This document shows, piece by piece, positions 1,828-9,052 of a DNA stretch of 9,052 nt (the stretch's first letter is position 1; each line of letters starts with the position of its first letter). The notes under the pieces are model-generated. The model had not been told where the DNA came from and made no database searches. It saw only the letters and a list, made by a program, of their open reading frames with translations. Origin of the DNA: Candidatus Eiseniibacteriota bacterium (lineage in GTDB: Bacteria > JAFGKV01); assembly GCA_025453925.1 (NCBI GenBank), contig JALOPK010000114.1, forward strand, positions 1-9,052. Reading direction: 5' to 3'. Both the position numbers and the translations under genes were made by a program.

Positions 1828-2574
1828 TCACCCTGACCTTCCCGCTTCTGCGGCCGCGACCGCAGCACCGATCATCCCGGCATTGTTCAGCAGGGCAGCG
1901 GGGGCAACAGGCGTGCGGAGCACCAGTGAACCGGAGAACTTCTCGAACCTCTTGCTGGCGCCTCCGCCGATGATGATCAGATCGGGCCAGAACAAGTTCT
2001 CCAGATGACGCAGGTACTCGCTGAACCTGCTTCCCCACTCCTCCCACGGGAGGTCCAGCCGTTTCCGGACCGCATCGGAGGCATAATGCTCAGCCTTCAT
2101 GTCGTGAAGAAACACGTGACCGAGTTCGGAGTTCGGCACCAGCCGGCCATGGGTGAACAGCGCGGTGCCCAACCCCGTGCCGACGGTCACCATGAGCACC
2201 ACTCCTCCGGCGCCGCGCCCCGCGCCGAAGCGCATCTCGGCCAGGCCCGCCGCGTCGGCATCGTTGAGCACGACTGCCGGACACCCCGTGGTCTCAGAGA
2301 TCAGGTGGGCCGCATCGGTTCCGATCCACGTCGAGTCGATGTTGGCGGCAGTGCGCACGATGCCGTCCCGCACCACCGCGGGAAAGCCGCAGCCGATAGG
2401 CCCGCTCCACTGGAACGAGCGGGCGATCTGACCGATCGCCTCCGCAACTGCCTGGGGAGTGGCAGGCTCGGGAGTAGGGATACGGAGGCGCTCCATCTGT
2501 GGCACCCCGGTGTCGGTCTCAACGGGGAACCCTTTGACTCCGGATCCGCCGACGTCAACTCCCAGAACTTGCAT
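1828..2574 (-). CDS. ppgK: Polyphosphate glucokinase (ROK/hexokinase fold)
   Basis: This 248-residue cytoplasmic kinase phosphorylates glucose to glucose 6-phosphate, using polyphosphate and often also ATP as donor (EC 2.7.1.63 family). The first phosphate-binding motif DVGGSGVKG is at 7-15. The family signatures [12 protein letters not shown] (29-40), GFPAVV (63-68) and TAANID (75-80) follow. LNDADAAG (103-110) contains the likely catalytic Asp105, [12 protein letters not shown] (129-140) is the second phosphate motif, SELGH is at 149-153 and IIGGGASKR at 201-209. The cysteine-rich zinc motif of classical ROK proteins is absent, as is usual in PPGK. The ATG at 2574 is chosen because the first kinase motif begins at residue 7 and GGAGG lies just upstream; the frame is open to 2964 but only as a shadow of the upstream gene. 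The start lies inside the end of the cyclase-ATPase gene (20-base overlap), which suggests one mRNA and translational coupling. Confidence 0.92.
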
Positions 2575-5500
2575 GGTCGTCCTCCGATCGGTGGGGCGGC
2601 GCACCGCCCGAAGATGTTCCACCGGTATGCTGTTCCTCGTCGTCAGTGTCTCCCGGCTCATCGCTGCCGCCGTCATCCGTAGCGTCGTGAAGCCCCGCCG
2701 TCGGCGTGGCCGCCGCACCGTTGTGCTCGCGGTAGATTGCGAGCAGGCGGTTGGTCGTATTGGCGCTGAGGTAGGATGCGCGTAGCGCGGGGTCCTTGAT
2801 GCGGTCCGCGATACTCTGCACTCGCTGCCATGTGGCGCCGAGAGCGGCCTCCGCGTCGTGGCTGCCCGACTCCCGCAGCACCTGGTAGCGGGCGAGCATG
2901 ACCCATGTGGGGTCATCAGCTCGTCCGACCTCATGGCTGTCGAGGGCGCCGATCCGCTCGGCATACATCAGGGCCTCAACAAGATCTCCTCGGGCACGGT
3001 GCAGGAGCGCAAGCCCGGCAGTGGCCTCAGGCACCACGGCAGCCTCCCCGGCGGACAGCGCACCGCAGAGGAGCTCTCCGGCCGAGTCGTACATGCGCCG
3101 TTCCATTCGAACGCGGCCAAGGTAGGTTGACATGTGCGCCACCAGGTGGTTCGCGGATAGCTGGCGAGCCAGAGTCAGACCCTCGACAAAGTACGGTTCG
3201 GCTTCCTCAAACCGACCCTGCGCGAGGTAGACCAGACCCAGGTTCCCCAGGACGATGCACTCCGCATTCCGGTTCCCGACCCTACGGTGGGTTGCCAACG
3301 CTTCCTCGAGGCACTTCCGTCCCTGCTCGAACTGGCCTATTGACCTGAACTGGTCACCAAGATTGGCCAGAGCCGTGCTTGTGCCGACAGGGTCCTCAAT
3401 GCTCCGGGAGATCTCGAGACTCGCCTGCTGGTATCGCAATGATGACTCGAGCTCTCCGCGATCGCATTCTACGTTGCCGAGACTCGTGAGCACCCGGCTC
3501 TGGCCGCGACGGTCACCGATCTCGCGTCGCAACTCCAGCGAACGCAGCAGGTGCTTTAGGGCCTCCTCGGCATTGCCCATGTACCAGGCAAGATTGCCGA
3601 GGTTGTTCAGCGCCGAGGCCTCGCGCGCCACATTGCCGCTGGCCTGCGCTAATGCCAGCGCCTCTTCCTCGAGTTCCATCGCTTCGGCATACTTGCCCTC
3701 ATGGGCGTTGATGAGTGCGAGCGCCTCCAGGCAGTTCGCCCTGAGGCTCCAGTCGTCGTTACGGTGCGCGAGTTCCAGCCCGCGCGTTCCCGCGCTTCGG
3801 GCCCCCGCGTAGTCGCCTCGCCGCCATAGCACCTTCGCGCGCACCGTGTTGGCCTCTCCCTCGACGCCCGCGAGACCGAGTGCTCCCGCAAGTTCCCGTG
3901 CGGCGTCGGCGGCCGTCAGAGCAGCGTCAAAATCGGCGGTCACATAGGCGTGGTGCGAGGACCTGAGTGACACGACGGCCATTCGTGCCTGGTCACCAAG
4001 GTCGCGGGCAAGGCCGGCGAGGAGACGGAGATCCTCGGCCTGAGAGGGCCGGTCAGCCGTGACCTTGTGGACATCCTCGCGGTTGAGGAGGGTTTCAAAC
4101 CGGAGGTCCCGTTCATCATCTGCAGCGAGGGTGAGGGCCTTCTCCAGGAGCCGAAGGGCGTCGGCATTGGCGAAGCGCATGGCCGCATGCTTGCCCGCAC
4201 GCAGGTACCAGCGTGCTGCATCGGGGGATGCGGCACGCTCCAGGTGGTGCGCGATGACGGCCGCGAACTCATCGGACCTGCCCGCGCGGGAAGCCGCTGA
4301 CTCGAGCCATCGGGCCGTCCGTTCGTGGAGAGGCGCCCGGTCGCGCCTGAGCACCGTCTCGTAGGTCGTTTCCTGAAGCAGAGCGTGCTTGAAGATGAAC
4401 TCATCGGTTCCCTCGAATGTCGAATACGGTCTTCGAAACACCAGTTGCCGCCTGACCAGCGATTGCATGAGATCGCCGGGGACCTTCGAGTCGGCCAACG
4501 GAGTTTCCGCAGCTCTGACGAACTCCAGAGCGCTGCGCCAGAAGACCCGACCCACCACCGATGCCTGCTGAAGGATCGATTTTTCGGGCGGCGGGAGGCT
4601 ATCGAGCCTCGCCTGCAGGACCCCGATCAGGGTCGTCGGGATCATCGCGGACACGTCATCGGATCCCGTCGGTGAGGACTCGGCGAGAGTTGTCGCCCGC
4701 TCGCCCAGCATCCGCAGAAGCTCCTCGAGGAAGTACGGGTTGCCCTCCGCGCGCCGGACCACGAGAGCCAGCGTTGCTTCGGCGATGGTGGGCGTTGATC
4801 GGAGGATGTCGGCTGCCAGCAGGCGGGTATGCTCGTTCGAGAGCCGGTCAAGGTCGATCCGGTCGAAACGGTCCGGCAGGAGCGCTTCTCCGGACAGCAG
4901 TTGGCCCGGCTGATCGGCCTGCGAAGGCCGTGTGAGGGCAATCACGAGGAACTTCCCCTCCGTATGCCGGAGGGCATGCCCCAACGCCGCGAGCGACTGG
5001 CTGTCACTCCAGTGGGTGTCATCCAGCGCGATCACGAGGCGAGCGCCAAACGCCATGCCGCCCAATAGCTCGGCCAGATACGACAAGGCGCGGTCGCGGA
5101 GTTGTTCGGGATCATCGCGGAGCGAGGAGATGTGCGGACTGTGGAAATCATACCCAAGCCACGCTCCCAGCATGGGAGCCTTCACCTCCGGGCGGTCGAG
5201 AAAGAAGGGCGCCGCCCCCCGTTCGAACTTGGCCCGCGCCGCAGCGGCCGAGTCGCTCTCAAGAATCTCGAAATGGGAGGCGAATACACTGCGCAGCAGC
5301 GCGTATGGCACCGCGCGCGTGTGGGGGAAAGCGCGCCCCTTCATCCAGACGACCCCGGGGTCCTCCTGTTCCATGCGGTGGGCGAACTCCAGAAGCAGCC
5401 GGCTCTTCCCGACCCCGGTCTCTCCGGTGATGAGCACCAGCCGGTTACCTTGGGCCCATGTGTCCTGGTAGGCCCGCCGCAGTGCCTCCAGCTCGGGTTC

Positions 5501-6259
5501 CCGGCCCACGAAGCGCGTGTCGACGCCATCAGGTCCCCGCACGGAAGACTCGAAGGTCCGCGGTCTCGCACGGAGGATCAGGTGCGCCCGCAGCAATTCC
5601 GTCTTCCCTTTGATGGCCTGGGGTGACAGGTCTTGTGTTTCAAACAGGCCGCGAACGTGGGTGTGCGTGTCGTGGGATACCAGCACTCCTCCGGGCGGGG
5701 CAATACTCTGGAGACGGCTGGCCACGTTCACCGTGTCGCCCACGGCGACGAATTCGCCTTCCCTCCGATCCGCCAGTTGTGAGACCACCACCACGCCGGT
5801 GTGGATGCCCACGCGCATGGCGAGATCCACCCTCCGCGCTCTCAACCCGTTGTTCAGTTTCTCCAGCTCACCCCCCATGGCCAGCGCGGCACGAACGGCG
5901 TTCTCGGCGTCGTCCTCACATGCGGCCGCCAGGCCGAACACCGCCATGACCGCGTCGCCGATGAACTTCTCGACGCGTCCGCCATAGTGTTCGATCTGAG
6001 TCTTCCATCGCCCGAAGTAGGCGCTCATGATCTGCTGCACGTCTTCGGGGTCCAACCGGTCAGATAGCTCGGTGAAGCCGGCGAGATCCGCGAACAGCAC
6101 GGTCACGAGCCGCCGCTGCTGGGTGACCGGCAGGCCTTTGAGCCGATCGACCTCGGCCCGCAACGGCCCCAGGGCCGAATCCACCACCTCGTCGCCCAGT
6201 ACGTGGCGCTGGGCCTCCATGGCGGCGATGGCGCGGGTCAGGCGCTCCAGGTCATCCAT
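2555..6259 (-). CDS. Class III nucleotide cyclase – STAND/AAA-type ATPase – TPR signalling protein
   Basis: This is a 1234-residue multidomain soluble regulator. Residues 48-230 form a class III cyclase domain with metal-binding Asp58 (LFADLAGFT) and Asp102 ([11 protein letters not shown]), base-contacting Lys98, and transition-state residues Asn178 and Arg182 (GDTVNVASR). The usual second base-selecting Asp/Thr is Val171. Residues about 248-660 are an AAA_16/STAND-like ATPase: FVGRE (250-254), Walker A GETGVGKS (279-286), Walker B region ALDDTHWSD (411-419), [10 protein letters not shown] (505-514) and [12 protein letters not shown] (623-634). From about 680 to 1175 there are helical TPR repeats, then a disordered acidic Ser/Gly tail (1178-1234). 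ATP hydrolysis and TPR-mediated partner sensing probably control the cyclase; the ligand and the cyclic nucleotide are unknown. The frame also opens with GTG at 6289, but the ATG at 6259 gives the family-typical beginning. No Shine-Dalgarno is visible for either start. The stop lies within ppgK. Confidence 0.9.
2581..2585 (-). promoter_or_regulatory. Ribosome-binding site of ppgK inside the upstream gene
   Basis: GGAGG on the minus strand ends 6 bases before the ppgK ATG and lies within the last codons of the cyclase-ATPase gene. It is the strongest Shine-Dalgarno match in the window and fixes the start at 2574 rather than at the longer open frame. Ribosomes finishing the upstream gene would cover or expose this site, so ppgK translation is probably linked to that of its neighbour. 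Confidence 0.7.
3020..3979 (-). repeat. Eight tandem 40-residue TPR units (120-base period)
   Basis: Within the cyclase-ATPase protein, residues 761-1080 divide into eight units of exactly 40 residues without insertions or deletions. A Gly recurs at the same position of six successive units (815, 855, 895, 935, 975 and 1015), usually followed within five residues by Ala. Three of the central units carry a shared LGN or LGD near their start. This is the long form of TPR (40 rather than 34 residues), as in kinesin light chain and LGN-type arrays, and probably forms a superhelical peptide-binding surface. The units are diverged at DNA level, so this is an old array and not a recent expansion. 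Confidence 0.8.
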
Positions 6260-6267
6260 CGACGTGG

Positions 6268-6287
6268 GCGGGGTTCGGATCCCCCGC
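6268..6287. promoter_or_regulatory. Hairpin just upstream of the cyclase-ATPase start
   Basis: GCGGGG (6268-6273) and CCCCGC (6282-6287) are perfect inverted copies with an 8-base loop, ending 8 bases before the ATG at 6259. On the mRNA this would put a stable stem where a ribosome-binding site would normally be, and no Shine-Dalgarno is seen outside it. It also spans the alternative GTG start (6289-6287) and the codons after it. It could restrain translation, or be a chance product of GC-rich DNA. Confidence 0.3.
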
Positions 6288-6305
6288 ACGGCTGACGCGG
6301 CGGGA

Positions 6306-6405: not shown

Positions 6406-8517
6406 CTACGCGGCCGCACCGCCTGTCCCGTGGGTACGGGCGTACTGCTTGTACCTGGCGTCGAGGTACACCTTGCGCAGGAAGGTCGCCAGGAAGAAGC
6501 TGACGATGATGGCGGCGATGGGATCCAGGTGCGCTCCGACCATCAGTGCCGCGAAGAGCACCGTGCCGAAGGTCAGAGTGACGCGATTGATCGCTCGCAG
6601 CATTGCCGGCGGGAGAACCTTGAAATGCTCGGGCCCGATCAGGTAGTCGCCGGTGTCCTCGACGGCCTGGGTGTGCTTGCGGTCAGGCAGCATGCGCACG
6701 GCGACGAAGCTCAACAGGTAGGCCATCGATCCGACGAAGATCAGCAAGGCGATGGACATAGTATCGCCGGGTTTCGACGGAATCGAGAACAGCGTTGCCT
6801 GGAGAGTCCGCAAGATCCCGAGATTCAGCCCGTTGTCGTAGAGCCAGGATCCGCTGGCGTACGAGAACGAGTAGGCGAGGTTCGCGACGGACATGAAGCC
6901 CGCGAAGAGGGAACCGGCGGCGGCGACCGGGATCACGGCCCCGACCAGGCTGAACGTGCTCATGCGAATGAAGGAGACAAGAATCGACATGAAGAAGTTG
7001 TACACGGCGTAGTAGCCCCACCGGACGGCCGAGAGACGCCCGCCAGGGACCGTCATCTTCGTCAGGCGGGTGCGTTCCGCGTCGCCATCTTTCTGGCGGT
7101 GCAGGTTGTATCCGTAGCAGGCGGCTTCTCTCTGGGTGGTCCAGCGGACGGTATCGGCCCCTGCGGCGCCCGGCGTGACCGAGATGTGGAGCGGACCTCC
7201 ATCGCTCTGCGGGATGTCGAGTTCGGCAGATCCGGCAGGAAGCGTCGCGGCGAGAGTAGTCGCGCTGGTATCCACGCTTGCGGCCGTGCTGTCGGCGGGC
7301 AGTGCCGCACCCGGTGCGGCGGAGTCTGCCGGCGGCGAGACCACCGCCAGCGGGCCGAAAGTCTGACTCGTCCCGTCAGTCCCTATCCGCTCCAGCCAGT
7401 ACCGGTAGAGCCCGGGCTTCCCCTCCTCGGCGACCTGTTCGTAGTCACGGGCCTTGGACCACGTTCCTTCCCCGGGAAGCGCGGCATGGATCCCGGTGGT
7501 GATCTTCGAGAACCATGGTTCAACCAACGCGTACTGGGTCAGGTTCACGCAGATGCTCAAAATGATGAACACTCGGAACACTGCCTTGAGGCCGAACTTG
7601 TCCTGCCACCTGACGCCCTTTTTCGCGAACCAGAGGACGCCCAAGAAGTATCCGGCATAGGCGATGCCGTCGGCGTAGCCGATACTGGTCTGGGAGAAGC
7701 CGATAGTCGAAATCAGGTAGTTGGTCCACAAGGCGCCCAGGGCGGGCTGGAAGTGGAAGAGGAAGTAAAACACGACGATCCACAGGATGGGACCCGTGTT
7801 GAGGCCGTCCCAGAAGTTGAGGACGGATTTCTTGATCGGTATCGAGTGGGCCACGTCTTTCGGCAGGCGCAAGGCCACGAGGAGCACGATGATCGGCACG
7901 GCGGCCAGGCCGAAGAGCAGATACTTGATGGGTACGTTGTCGGCGATCCACCCTCCCGATGCGCCGCCAAAGATGCTCGTGCCGTAGATCGCGGCCCAGC
8001 AGATGGCCTGGTTGAGACCGACGGTGGCGGCCTTCGATCTCCCCGAGGTCTTGCTCTCTTCGTCGCCGGTGATGACGGTCGCCCGGTCCACCGCGACATC
8101 CGTGCAGGCGAAGAAGATCGAGAGAACGAACATCAGCCAGAAGAACACCACGGCCGAGGTGTCGAAGAATGGCGTGACGGCGTAGAAGAGCGCACCTGAA
8201 GCCAGGAGGAGGACCAGCGCCACCTTCGTCTTCCCGAAGGCGTCCATGAAGAACCCGATGACTGGCTTGAAACTCCAGGCGAGGTACGAACGCGAGAACA
8301 TGGCCTGGGTGTCGGCTGCGCTCAGCCCGTACGTGAAGTGGAAGTGCCGGAAGAAGGACTGGTACGTGATACCCTGGAAGGGATTCGCCAATCCCTGGAG
8401 CACATACTCCATGGCGAACAACACCTTGTAAGGATTCCAGCCGAAGATCGTCTTCATCTTCGGGGCGGGACCTGAGGGCTGACTCTGGGAAGCCTTCTGC
8501 GCGGGGGTCTCGGGCAT
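6406..8517 (-). CDS. BT1/folate-biopterin-type MFS transporter with periplasmic FN3-like insert
   Basis: This is a 703-residue inner-membrane transporter. The ATG at 8517 follows AGGAG (8525-8529) with a 7-base spacer. The N-terminal half looks like the BT1 branch of the major facilitator superfamily: NPFQGITYQSFF (45-56), LAWSFKPVIGFFMDAFG (79-95) and ACTDVAVDRATVITG (137-151). Membrane segments lie at about 30-50, 68-90, 97-114, 121-138, 168-185, 197-216, 243-263, 277-297, 311-332, 500-520, 524-556 and 585-607. Residues about 340-495 interrupt the fold between helices 9 and 10, a loop predicted to be periplasmic. They hold FN3-like sequence and an Ala/Ser/Thr/Pro-rich linker. After helix 12 come a soluble stretch (610-640) and two more hydrophobic segments (643-661, 665-682). 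The usual family length is about 450-550 residues. The substrate cannot be told: family members carry folates, pterins and other solutes. The neighbours do not settle it. Confidence 0.82.
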   Translation of the reverse strand: MPETPAQKASQSQPSGPAPKMKTIFGWNPYKVLFAMEYVLQGLANPFQGITYQSFFRHFHFTYGLSAADTQAMFSRSYLAWSFKPVIGFFMDAFGKTKVALVLLLASGALFYAVTPFFDTSAVVFFWLMFVLSIFFACTDVAVDRATVITGDEESKTSGRSKAATVGLNQAICWAAIYGTSIFGGASGGWIADNVPIKYLLFGLAAVPIIVLLVALRLPKDVAHSIPIKKSVLNFWDGLNTGPILWIVVFYFLFHFQPALGALWTNYLISTIGFSQTSIGYADGIAYAGYFLGVLWFAKKGVRWQDKFGLKAVFRVFIILSICVNLTQYALVEPWFSKITTGIHAALPGEGTWSKARDYEQVAEEGKPGLYRYWLERIGTDGTSQTFGPLAVVSPPADSAAPGAALPADSTAASVDTSATTLAATLPAGSAELDIPQSDGGPLHISVTPGAAGADTVRWTTQREAACYGYNLHRQKDGDAERTRLTKMTVPGGRLSAVRWGYYAVYNFFMSILVSFIRMSTFSLVGAVIPVAAAGSLFAGFMSVANLAYSFSYASGSWLYDNGLNLGILRTLQATLFSIPSKPGDTMSIALLIFVGSMAYLLSFVAVRMLPDRKHTQAVEDTGDYLIGPEHFKVLPPAMLRAINRVTLTFGTVLFAALMVGAHLDPIAAIIVSFFLATFLRKVYLDARYKQYARTHGTGGAAA

Positions 8518-8606: not shown

Positions 8607-8635
8607 ATTCAGGACTGACCGGTCGCGCTTGTCAA
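8607..8635 (-). promoter_or_regulatory. Candidate sigma-70-type promoter for the transporter gene
   Basis: TTGACA on the minus strand (8635-8630) matches the -35 consensus perfectly and overlaps the TGA stop of the flavin reductase gene. CTGAAT (8612-8607) follows after 17 bases and is a weak -10 match (three of six). Transcription would begin near 8600, about 80 bases before the transporter ATG. The spacing is ideal, but the poor -10 makes this tentative. Confidence 0.3.
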
Positions 8636-9052
8636 GGCTGCGGCGCGGTGGGAGTCGCTGCCGGCGTTCGGTGCCCCTCCGTGCCCCATGCGGCCACGAT
8701 CTCCCCGAAGTACGCCGTGTGGTAGTCTTTCTGGGGGTACTCGTCGTCGATGGAGTGGTCCAGGAAGTGCGCGGGGTCGAACTGATTGCGGTAGATGGTT
8801 CGGCATTCCAGGATCAGCTCCGCCTCTTGGAATGAAGGCGCCATGACCGCCGACGATGGTACGGGGGTCAGGCCACAGCCCGGAAGCTTGTCGCCATCGC
8901 GACCAGACAGCGTCCCAAGGCGGACGAGGGCCGGCCGGTGGGCCTCCGAGAAGGCGGAAAGCGTGAAGGTCGGGTAGCGCTCGATGAACCCGTGGGTGTG
9001 GCGGGTCGGCCTCACGACTACTTGAGCGAACGGACGGTTCCACATCACCCCG
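8632..9052 (-). CDS. Flavin reductase-like protein (FMN-binding split barrel), N-terminus outside window
   Basis: The minus strand is open from the window edge to a TGA at 8634-8632, giving 139 codons. GTG and ATG codons at 9048 and 9045 are unlikely to be the start: in this family GVMWNRP is an internal segment following the first flavin-binding strands. Family features seen, numbered from the first full codon (9051-9049), are VVRPTRHTHGFIE (12-24), FTLSAF (29-34), GTLSGRDGDKLPGCGLTP (46-63), ILECRTIYRNQ (80-90) and FLDHSIDDEYPQKDYHTAYFGEI (96-118). Proteins of this type bind FMN and reduce flavins or act as flavoredoxin-like electron carriers in the cytoplasm; the exact partner is unknown. 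The end is a short Ala/Pro/Thr-rich tail that looks unstructured. The transporter gene starts 114 bases downstream, and that gap holds a candidate promoter and the transporter ribosome-binding site but no gene. Confidence 0.8.
   Translation of the reverse strand, partial: GVMWNRPFAQVVVRPTRHTHGFIERYPTFTLSAFSEAHRPALVRLGTLSGRDGDKLPGCGLTPVPSSAVMAPSFQEAELILECRTIYRNQFDPAHFLDHSIDDEYPQKDYHTAYFGEIVAAWGTEGHRTPAATPTAPQP

Follow-up and report, generated by a model that had tools for sequence, protein, structure and literature searches.

The window (the whole stretch of DNA that was analysed, 9,052 nucleotides from Candidatus Eiseniibacteriota bacterium) contains a gene for a BT1-family MFS transporter in which a surplus segment separates TM9 from TM10. 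The features of the gene and its surroundings are listed in Table 1. Over its helical core the protein scores 46.4 bits with the BT1 model, whose cut-off is 22, in line with the assignment as a BT1-type transporter in the sequence-only reading of this DNA. A weaker match to MFS_1 is found as well, and both models are matched by all eight of the eight aligned homologues. With TIGR00788, the curated folate/biopterin subfamily, the score of 40 bits is far from the cut-off of 216, and the protein is thus not placed in that subfamily. Beyond TM12 the protein continues in a C-terminal extension with more hydrophobic stretches, which all aligned homologues have.

The BT1 subfamily represented by the homologues L021–L026 and L063 shows a patchy distribution, with one or two matches per ~300–400 sampled genomes in each of three phyla. 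Across phyla its members are still 51%–63% identical, and one of them is present in an assembly labelled as an archaeon. Taken together, these properties suggest a spread of the subfamily by horizontal transfer.

A flavin reductase-like open frame (PF01613) is located upstream of the transporter, near the contig end. Downstream and on the same strand are a large protein with guanylate cyclase, AAA_16 and TPR motifs and a ROK kinase. The order transporter, cyclase/AAA/TPR protein, ROK kinase is kept in the sister species (L020), and the three genes possibly form a functional unit, which is perhaps sugar-related. A 589-aa open frame that is antisense to the transporter is probably a by-product of GC-rich codon usage.

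Table 1. Features of the transporter gene and neighboring open reading frames (nucleotide positions are those of the window; aa positions are those of the transporter).
Feature	Position	Strand	Description	Basis
Flavin reductase-like open frame	8632..9048	(-)		PF01613
BT1-family MFS transporter gene	6406..8517	(-)	703 aa	PF03092, 3.1e-12
TM1–TM9 half	7483..8433	(-)	aa 29–345; native loop end ..HAALP	alignment with insert-less homologues; dN/dS 0.08
A-half of insert	7336..7482	(-)	aa 346–394; C-terminal half of FN3 (strands E, F, G), comes first	profile positions 51–99, 36.5 bits; AF2 strands
Left P-G-x-G loop motif copy	7468..7479	(-)	aa 347–350, LPGE; codons CTT CCC GGG GAA	overlaps native transporter LP
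Linker, Ala/Pro/Ser/Asp/Thr-rich	7198..7335	(-)	aa 395–440; old C-terminus (strand G) to old N-terminus (strand A)	composition; 36% identity; pLDDT
B-half of insert	7036..7197	(-)	aa 441–494; N-terminal half of FN3 (strands A, B, C, C'), comes second	profile positions 16–57, 22.8 bits; AF2 strands; dN/dS 0.29
Right loop motif copy	7036..7050	(-)	aa 490–494, VPGGR; codons GTC CCT GGC GGG CGT	overlap of profile matches at positions 51–57
TM10–TM12	6685..7035	(-)	aa 495–611	homologue alignment; dN/dS 0.05
C-terminal extension after TM12	6409..6684	(-)	aa 612–703	
Open frame antisense to transporter	6430..8199	(+)	589 aa	
Guanylate cyclase/AAA_16/TPR protein	2555..6289	(-)		
ROK kinase	1831..2739	(-)		

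The surplus segment between TM9 and TM10

Alignment with homologues shows a surplus of ~147 residues, which starts behind P348 and ends at about R494. The insert sits between LP (aa 347–348) and SAVR (aa 496–499) of the window protein. An extra stretch between helices 9 and 10 had been proposed from the letters of the DNA, and its place is confirmed by the alignment; its size had been put too high, at about 155 residues. The motifs quoted at that time, YRYWLERIGTDGT (aa 371–383), FGPLAVV (aa 387–393) and VRWTTQREAACYGYNLHRQ (aa 457–475), are found at these positions.

Six aligned homologues of other phyla (L021–L026, 51%–63% identical to L024) do not have the insert. Their TM9–TM10 loop consists of LP or xP, a handful of residues, and then VR or IR; LP or a similar pair is native in these insert-less proteins. 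The match of a seventh homologue, L063, extends over the insert-less length. Since the homologues of other phyla are without it, the insert is, as judged by this alignment, a derived feature. A search for further insert-bearing homologues in ~1,025 genomes of four phyla, one of which is represented by eight genomes, yielded only this seventh, insert-less homologue in addition.

The same insert, with the swapped order that is described below, is found in the one other genome of the genus that was searched, which comes from a separate assembly (G001, Candidatus Fermentibacteria; contig JAFGKV010000036.1). The two transporters display 75%–77% identity over the whole protein and the downstream gene order is conserved. 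It should be noted that both species from which the insert is known are represented by metagenome draft assemblies, and the source assembly of the window is fragmented into 502 contigs, a state in which two unrelated contig pieces might be joined by error. The presence of the arrangement in another assembly, at this level of identity and with the same genes downstream, refutes an assembly artefact, and the chance of one is negligible.

The loop had been predicted to be periplasmic. With TM limits set by hand, the numbers of K and R residues in the inside loops before TM3, 5, 7, 9 and 11 are 1, 3, 3, 4 and 0, and those in the outside loops other than the insert are 1, 0, 0, 0 and 2. The TM2–TM3 loop holds the segment GFFMDAFGKTK, which we take to be similar to motif A of MFS transporters. 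Because of this segment and of the positive-inside counts, which support an external loop, the TM9–TM10 loop is most likely on the outside (periplasmic).

Order of the two half-domains

A search of the phylum's three genomes (G000, G001 and G002) with the transporter protein reveals a domain of ~100 residues in apparently secreted proteins. Its consensus in normal order is VPVELxSFxA...VxLxWxTxSE...GFxxxR...IPGxGT...YSYVD...YRYWLEQVDxxGxxxxFGPVxV. A profile of 102 positions, made from 13 normal-order domains from other proteins, detects 47 normal-order copies in the three genomes (~92–101 profile positions covered, E below 1e-24), together with a tail of weaker copies. In the proteins examined, the domain is followed by a FlgD-like/T9SS-type tail (e.g. 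L014, aa 450–549), and among these proteins it is never found in a membrane transporter. Pfam and NCBIfam have no model for either half of the insert or for the normal-order domain; neither the transporter nor the insert nor any of the normal-order domains is matched by Pfam fn3 or another curated FN3 model, and a PDB sequence profile search gave no significant match. This abundant FN3-like domain (PVEL...W.T.SE...IPGxGT...YWLE...GP) has the appearance of a module that secreted proteins use throughout the phylum.

Each half of the insert is homologous to this domain, with roughly 30%–48% identity per half. The domain of the secreted proteins has the normal strand order and is near the C-terminal end, whereas the insert is swapped and lies inside a transporter. 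Profile positions 51–99 match aa 346–393 of the window protein, and positions 16–57 match aa 454–495 (bit scores in Table 1). In the sister-species transporter the matches are to positions 48–99 and then to positions 18–55. Genome-wide, the two half matches have E-values of 7e-10 and 1e-5 for the window protein and of 6e-6 and 2e-4 for its sister-species counterpart, and the best of 5,000 shuffled inserts scores 7.3 bits; the order reversal is thus far above chance. Insert-less homologues show no significant profile match. Only the two transporters have out-of-order pairs in the three genomes.

The strand order along the insert is E-F-G-linker-A-B-C-C', and not the normal FN3 order A-B-C-C'-E-F-G. 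The second half-domain is thus ahead of the first, with the cut at the protodomain boundary. The overlap of the two half matches is limited to the IPGxGT loop (profile positions 51–57), which places the cut in the loop between C' and E; each outer end of the insert carries a copy of the motif of this loop (LPGEG and VPGG). Both ends thus belong to one and the same C'-E loop, which brings the insertion points together. A doubled profile gave no single match spanning both halves, since the linker is long.

The suggestions that the halves are swapped, that their order is that of a circular permutation and that the insertion points are close together are borne out by these data, with one profile and in both species. 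The two parts match one domain family rather than unrelated folds, and no homologue with the insert in normal FN3 order was found. The circular permutation itself is regarded as very probable.

A back half, a linker and a front half in this order are also what an out-of-phase cut through a tandem FN3 array gives. The halves would then pair between two transporters as a domain-swapped dimer; as a review points out, a circular permutant is what the middle of a tandem swap amounts to (PMC6863430). The best single matches of the halves differ (A-half, L008/L009; B-half, C454), as an array piece would allow. However, each donor-type protein examined has one domain with a FlgD-like tail and no tandem array, the linker is unlike that tail, and the halves overlap exactly at one loop. 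The single-chain model described below also closes on its own. We consider an array piece unlikely and a permuted single domain the better reading.

Predicted structures and selection

AlphaFold, with an alignment of 30 copies, models the normal-order domain of contig C454 with a pLDDT of 94.4. The PDB matches of this model are overwhelmingly FN3, the highest being Ihog FNIII (TM 0.79); VIA-align gives Z 11.4 and rmsd 2.4 for 98 residues. Thus the normal-order relatives are predicted to fold as FN3, and the insert, which is homologous to them in both halves, fits the FN3-like domain that had been suggested for it.

The insert was modelled as aa 336–500. The MAFFT alignment contained the two transporter sequences and separate half-domain fragments from normal domains; A-half fragments that retained the PG motif were trimmed. 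Because no alignment row held a whole normal domain, AlphaFold was given no information on how the halves meet, and the contact between the halves in the model rests on the two full-length sequences, since the other rows are half-domain fragments. The model has a pTM of 0.70, with strands at aa 357–365, 369–379, 384–394, 431–435, 443–448, 454–461 and 467–476. Block pLDDT is about 81–96 in both halves (strands of the A-half about 90–93, strands of the B-half 86–96), and values below 50 are confined to the tails and to aa 411–423 of the linker. The outcome of this structure prediction is a beta-sandwich, and it is probable, on the model, that the insert closes into one compact sandwich made from both halves.

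In its own chain order the insert can be superposed along its full length on Ig V sandwiches of the PDB (TCR V; Z 10.6, rmsd 2.6, 110 residues), where a Z near 10 against many sandwiches indicates fold class and not kinship. Foldseek matches are weak (best E 0.04, to sandwiches), as is expected because the chain is permuted. FN3 is not among the insert matches listed, and this absence counts as no evidence against FN3.

Selection was estimated from the two species. The dN/dS values of the helical segments and of the B-half are given in Table 1; pN/pS is 0.31 for the A-half and 0.64 for the linker, which is 36% identical between the two species. All of these values are rough, as synonymous sites are near saturation. 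By these ratios both halves are clearly under purifying selection and the linker is much less constrained. Residues kept in the insert are W459, T461, E464, G469, R474, G492, Y359, Y373, G382 and G388-P389, which lie at columns that vary little or not at all among the normal-order domains. An Asp of strand E (YSYVD) that is almost invariant there has been lost.

The loss of this Asp, the low-complexity linker and the faster divergence of the insert relative to the helices would agree with a decaying remnant, or with a disordered spacer without a fold that is kept as the loop tolerates an insert. Such a remnant is nevertheless quite improbable: both halves have dN/dS of about 0.3 with W459, T461, E464, G469, R474, Y359, Y373, G382, G388 and P389 kept, neither of the two species has an interrupted reading frame, and the structure model is confident.

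The reading we prefer, with a probability of roughly 0.78, is that the TM9–TM10 loop carries a circularly permuted FN3 domain, with strands E-F-G followed by strands A-B-C-C' and a flexible linker of ~45 residues that joins the old ends.

Inverse domains, origin and possible role

Ig-type folds, FN3 included, are made of two pseudo-symmetric half-domains, AB-CC' and DE-FG, and the FN3 halves superpose at 1.8 A; the inverse Ig domains found in a structural search resemble regular Ig domains in their own order, with little identity in sequence (PMC8470474). The superposition of the insert on Ig V in its own order is thus what an exchange of pseudo-symmetric halves predicts. Because the cut falls at the half-domain boundary, closure into an Ig-like sandwich is still possible for the swapped chain.

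The inverse Ig of CD19 (DE-FG followed by AB-CC') has the same half-domain order as the insert and is equivalent to a domain that has been circularly permuted where the protodomains meet (PMC8470474). It arises, however, by folding between two normal-order Ig domains, whereas the insert is swapped within one gene segment. Judged by the profile matches, the insert is a gene-level circular permutant, i.e. an "inverse" FN3. A published sequence search for the inverse order found none outside CD19 orthologues, and the engineering of such domains was proposed (PMC8470474). As far as the literature searched shows, the insert seems to be a case of this kind that exists in nature and at the level of the gene.

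The domain closest to the B-half is that of an FG-GAP-like protein encoded by contig C454 in this genome, with a z of 27, whereas the domains that come next reach about 16 at most. For the A-half several relatives score nearly equally, and C454 is one of them. From these scores one donor for both halves is plausible, and this donor may have been a secreted FN3-tailed protein encoded in the same genome, e.g. the C454 protein. Joining would have taken place at a shared Pro-Gly stretch, LP in the native loop and IPG in the loop of the normal domain. A circularised or tandemly duplicated FN3 segment may have integrated by crossover at this short shared stretch, and such a crossover would yield the permuted order as well as the motif copies at the two ends. 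In the sister species CCC GGC is present at both ends of the insert.

The ends of an FN3 domain lie at opposite poles, and a normal FN3 is for this reason a poor loop insert. The new ends of the permuted domain are side by side, so that it can hang from the short TM9–TM10 loop without spreading the helices. The permutation, together with the ~45-residue linker, would remove the obstacle that end distance poses to loop insertion. In inserted domains the two ends are as a rule near each other (median 14 A versus 30 A), and such domains may be permuted (PMC13114784). Circularly permuted inserted domains, i.e. insertion and permutation together, are known in RNA polymerase according to that source (PMC13114784). 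The likeness to the present insert is in the combination of insertion and permutation; the host protein differs.

A comparable placement is known in the mammalian transporters PepT1 and PepT2 (SLC15), which have two tandem Ig-like domains between TM9 and TM10, where one three-helix repeat of the C-terminal bundle is connected to the other (PMC4597091). These domains bind trypsin, and PepT2 without its Ig-like domains shows normal transport (PMC4597091). Ig-like sandwich material is thus located at the same place of an MFS transporter in both cases. PepT1 and PepT2 have two Ig-like domains in tandem, whereas one permuted FN3 sandwich is predicted here, and they belong to the animal POT family, whereas the host of the insert is of the bacterial BT1 family; the likeness is in position and fold class, and homology is not implied. 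The analogy suggests that the TM9–TM10 loop may be a preferred docking site of MFS transporters.

Capture of substrate or contact with the envelope had been suggested as possible roles of the inserted domain. By the same analogy, it may serve on the outside as a platform to which a partner protein or the envelope docks, similar to the Ig-like domains of PepT1/PepT2, and the helices would transport without needing it. The most likely role, to which we give a little less than even odds, is that of a docking module on the periplasmic side that would hold a partner (an envelope protein or secreted enzyme, or the wall) close to the transporter, and transport would be independent of it. It is considered reasonably likely that the insert is a natural "inverse" FN3 which was formed by a protodomain swap in the coding sequence through Pro-Gly-loop joining, was selected for adjacent ends that enable loop insertion, and represents a bacterial convergence with PepT1/PepT2.

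If this is true, the insert would be a sequence-level counterpart of the inverse Ig, which the published sequence search found only in CD19. Permutation by which both ends meet is a possible natural solution for the insertion of a domain whose ends point apart. The insert also supports the view of Ig-type sandwiches as two exchangeable half-domains, with donor-type domains and the product present in one genome.
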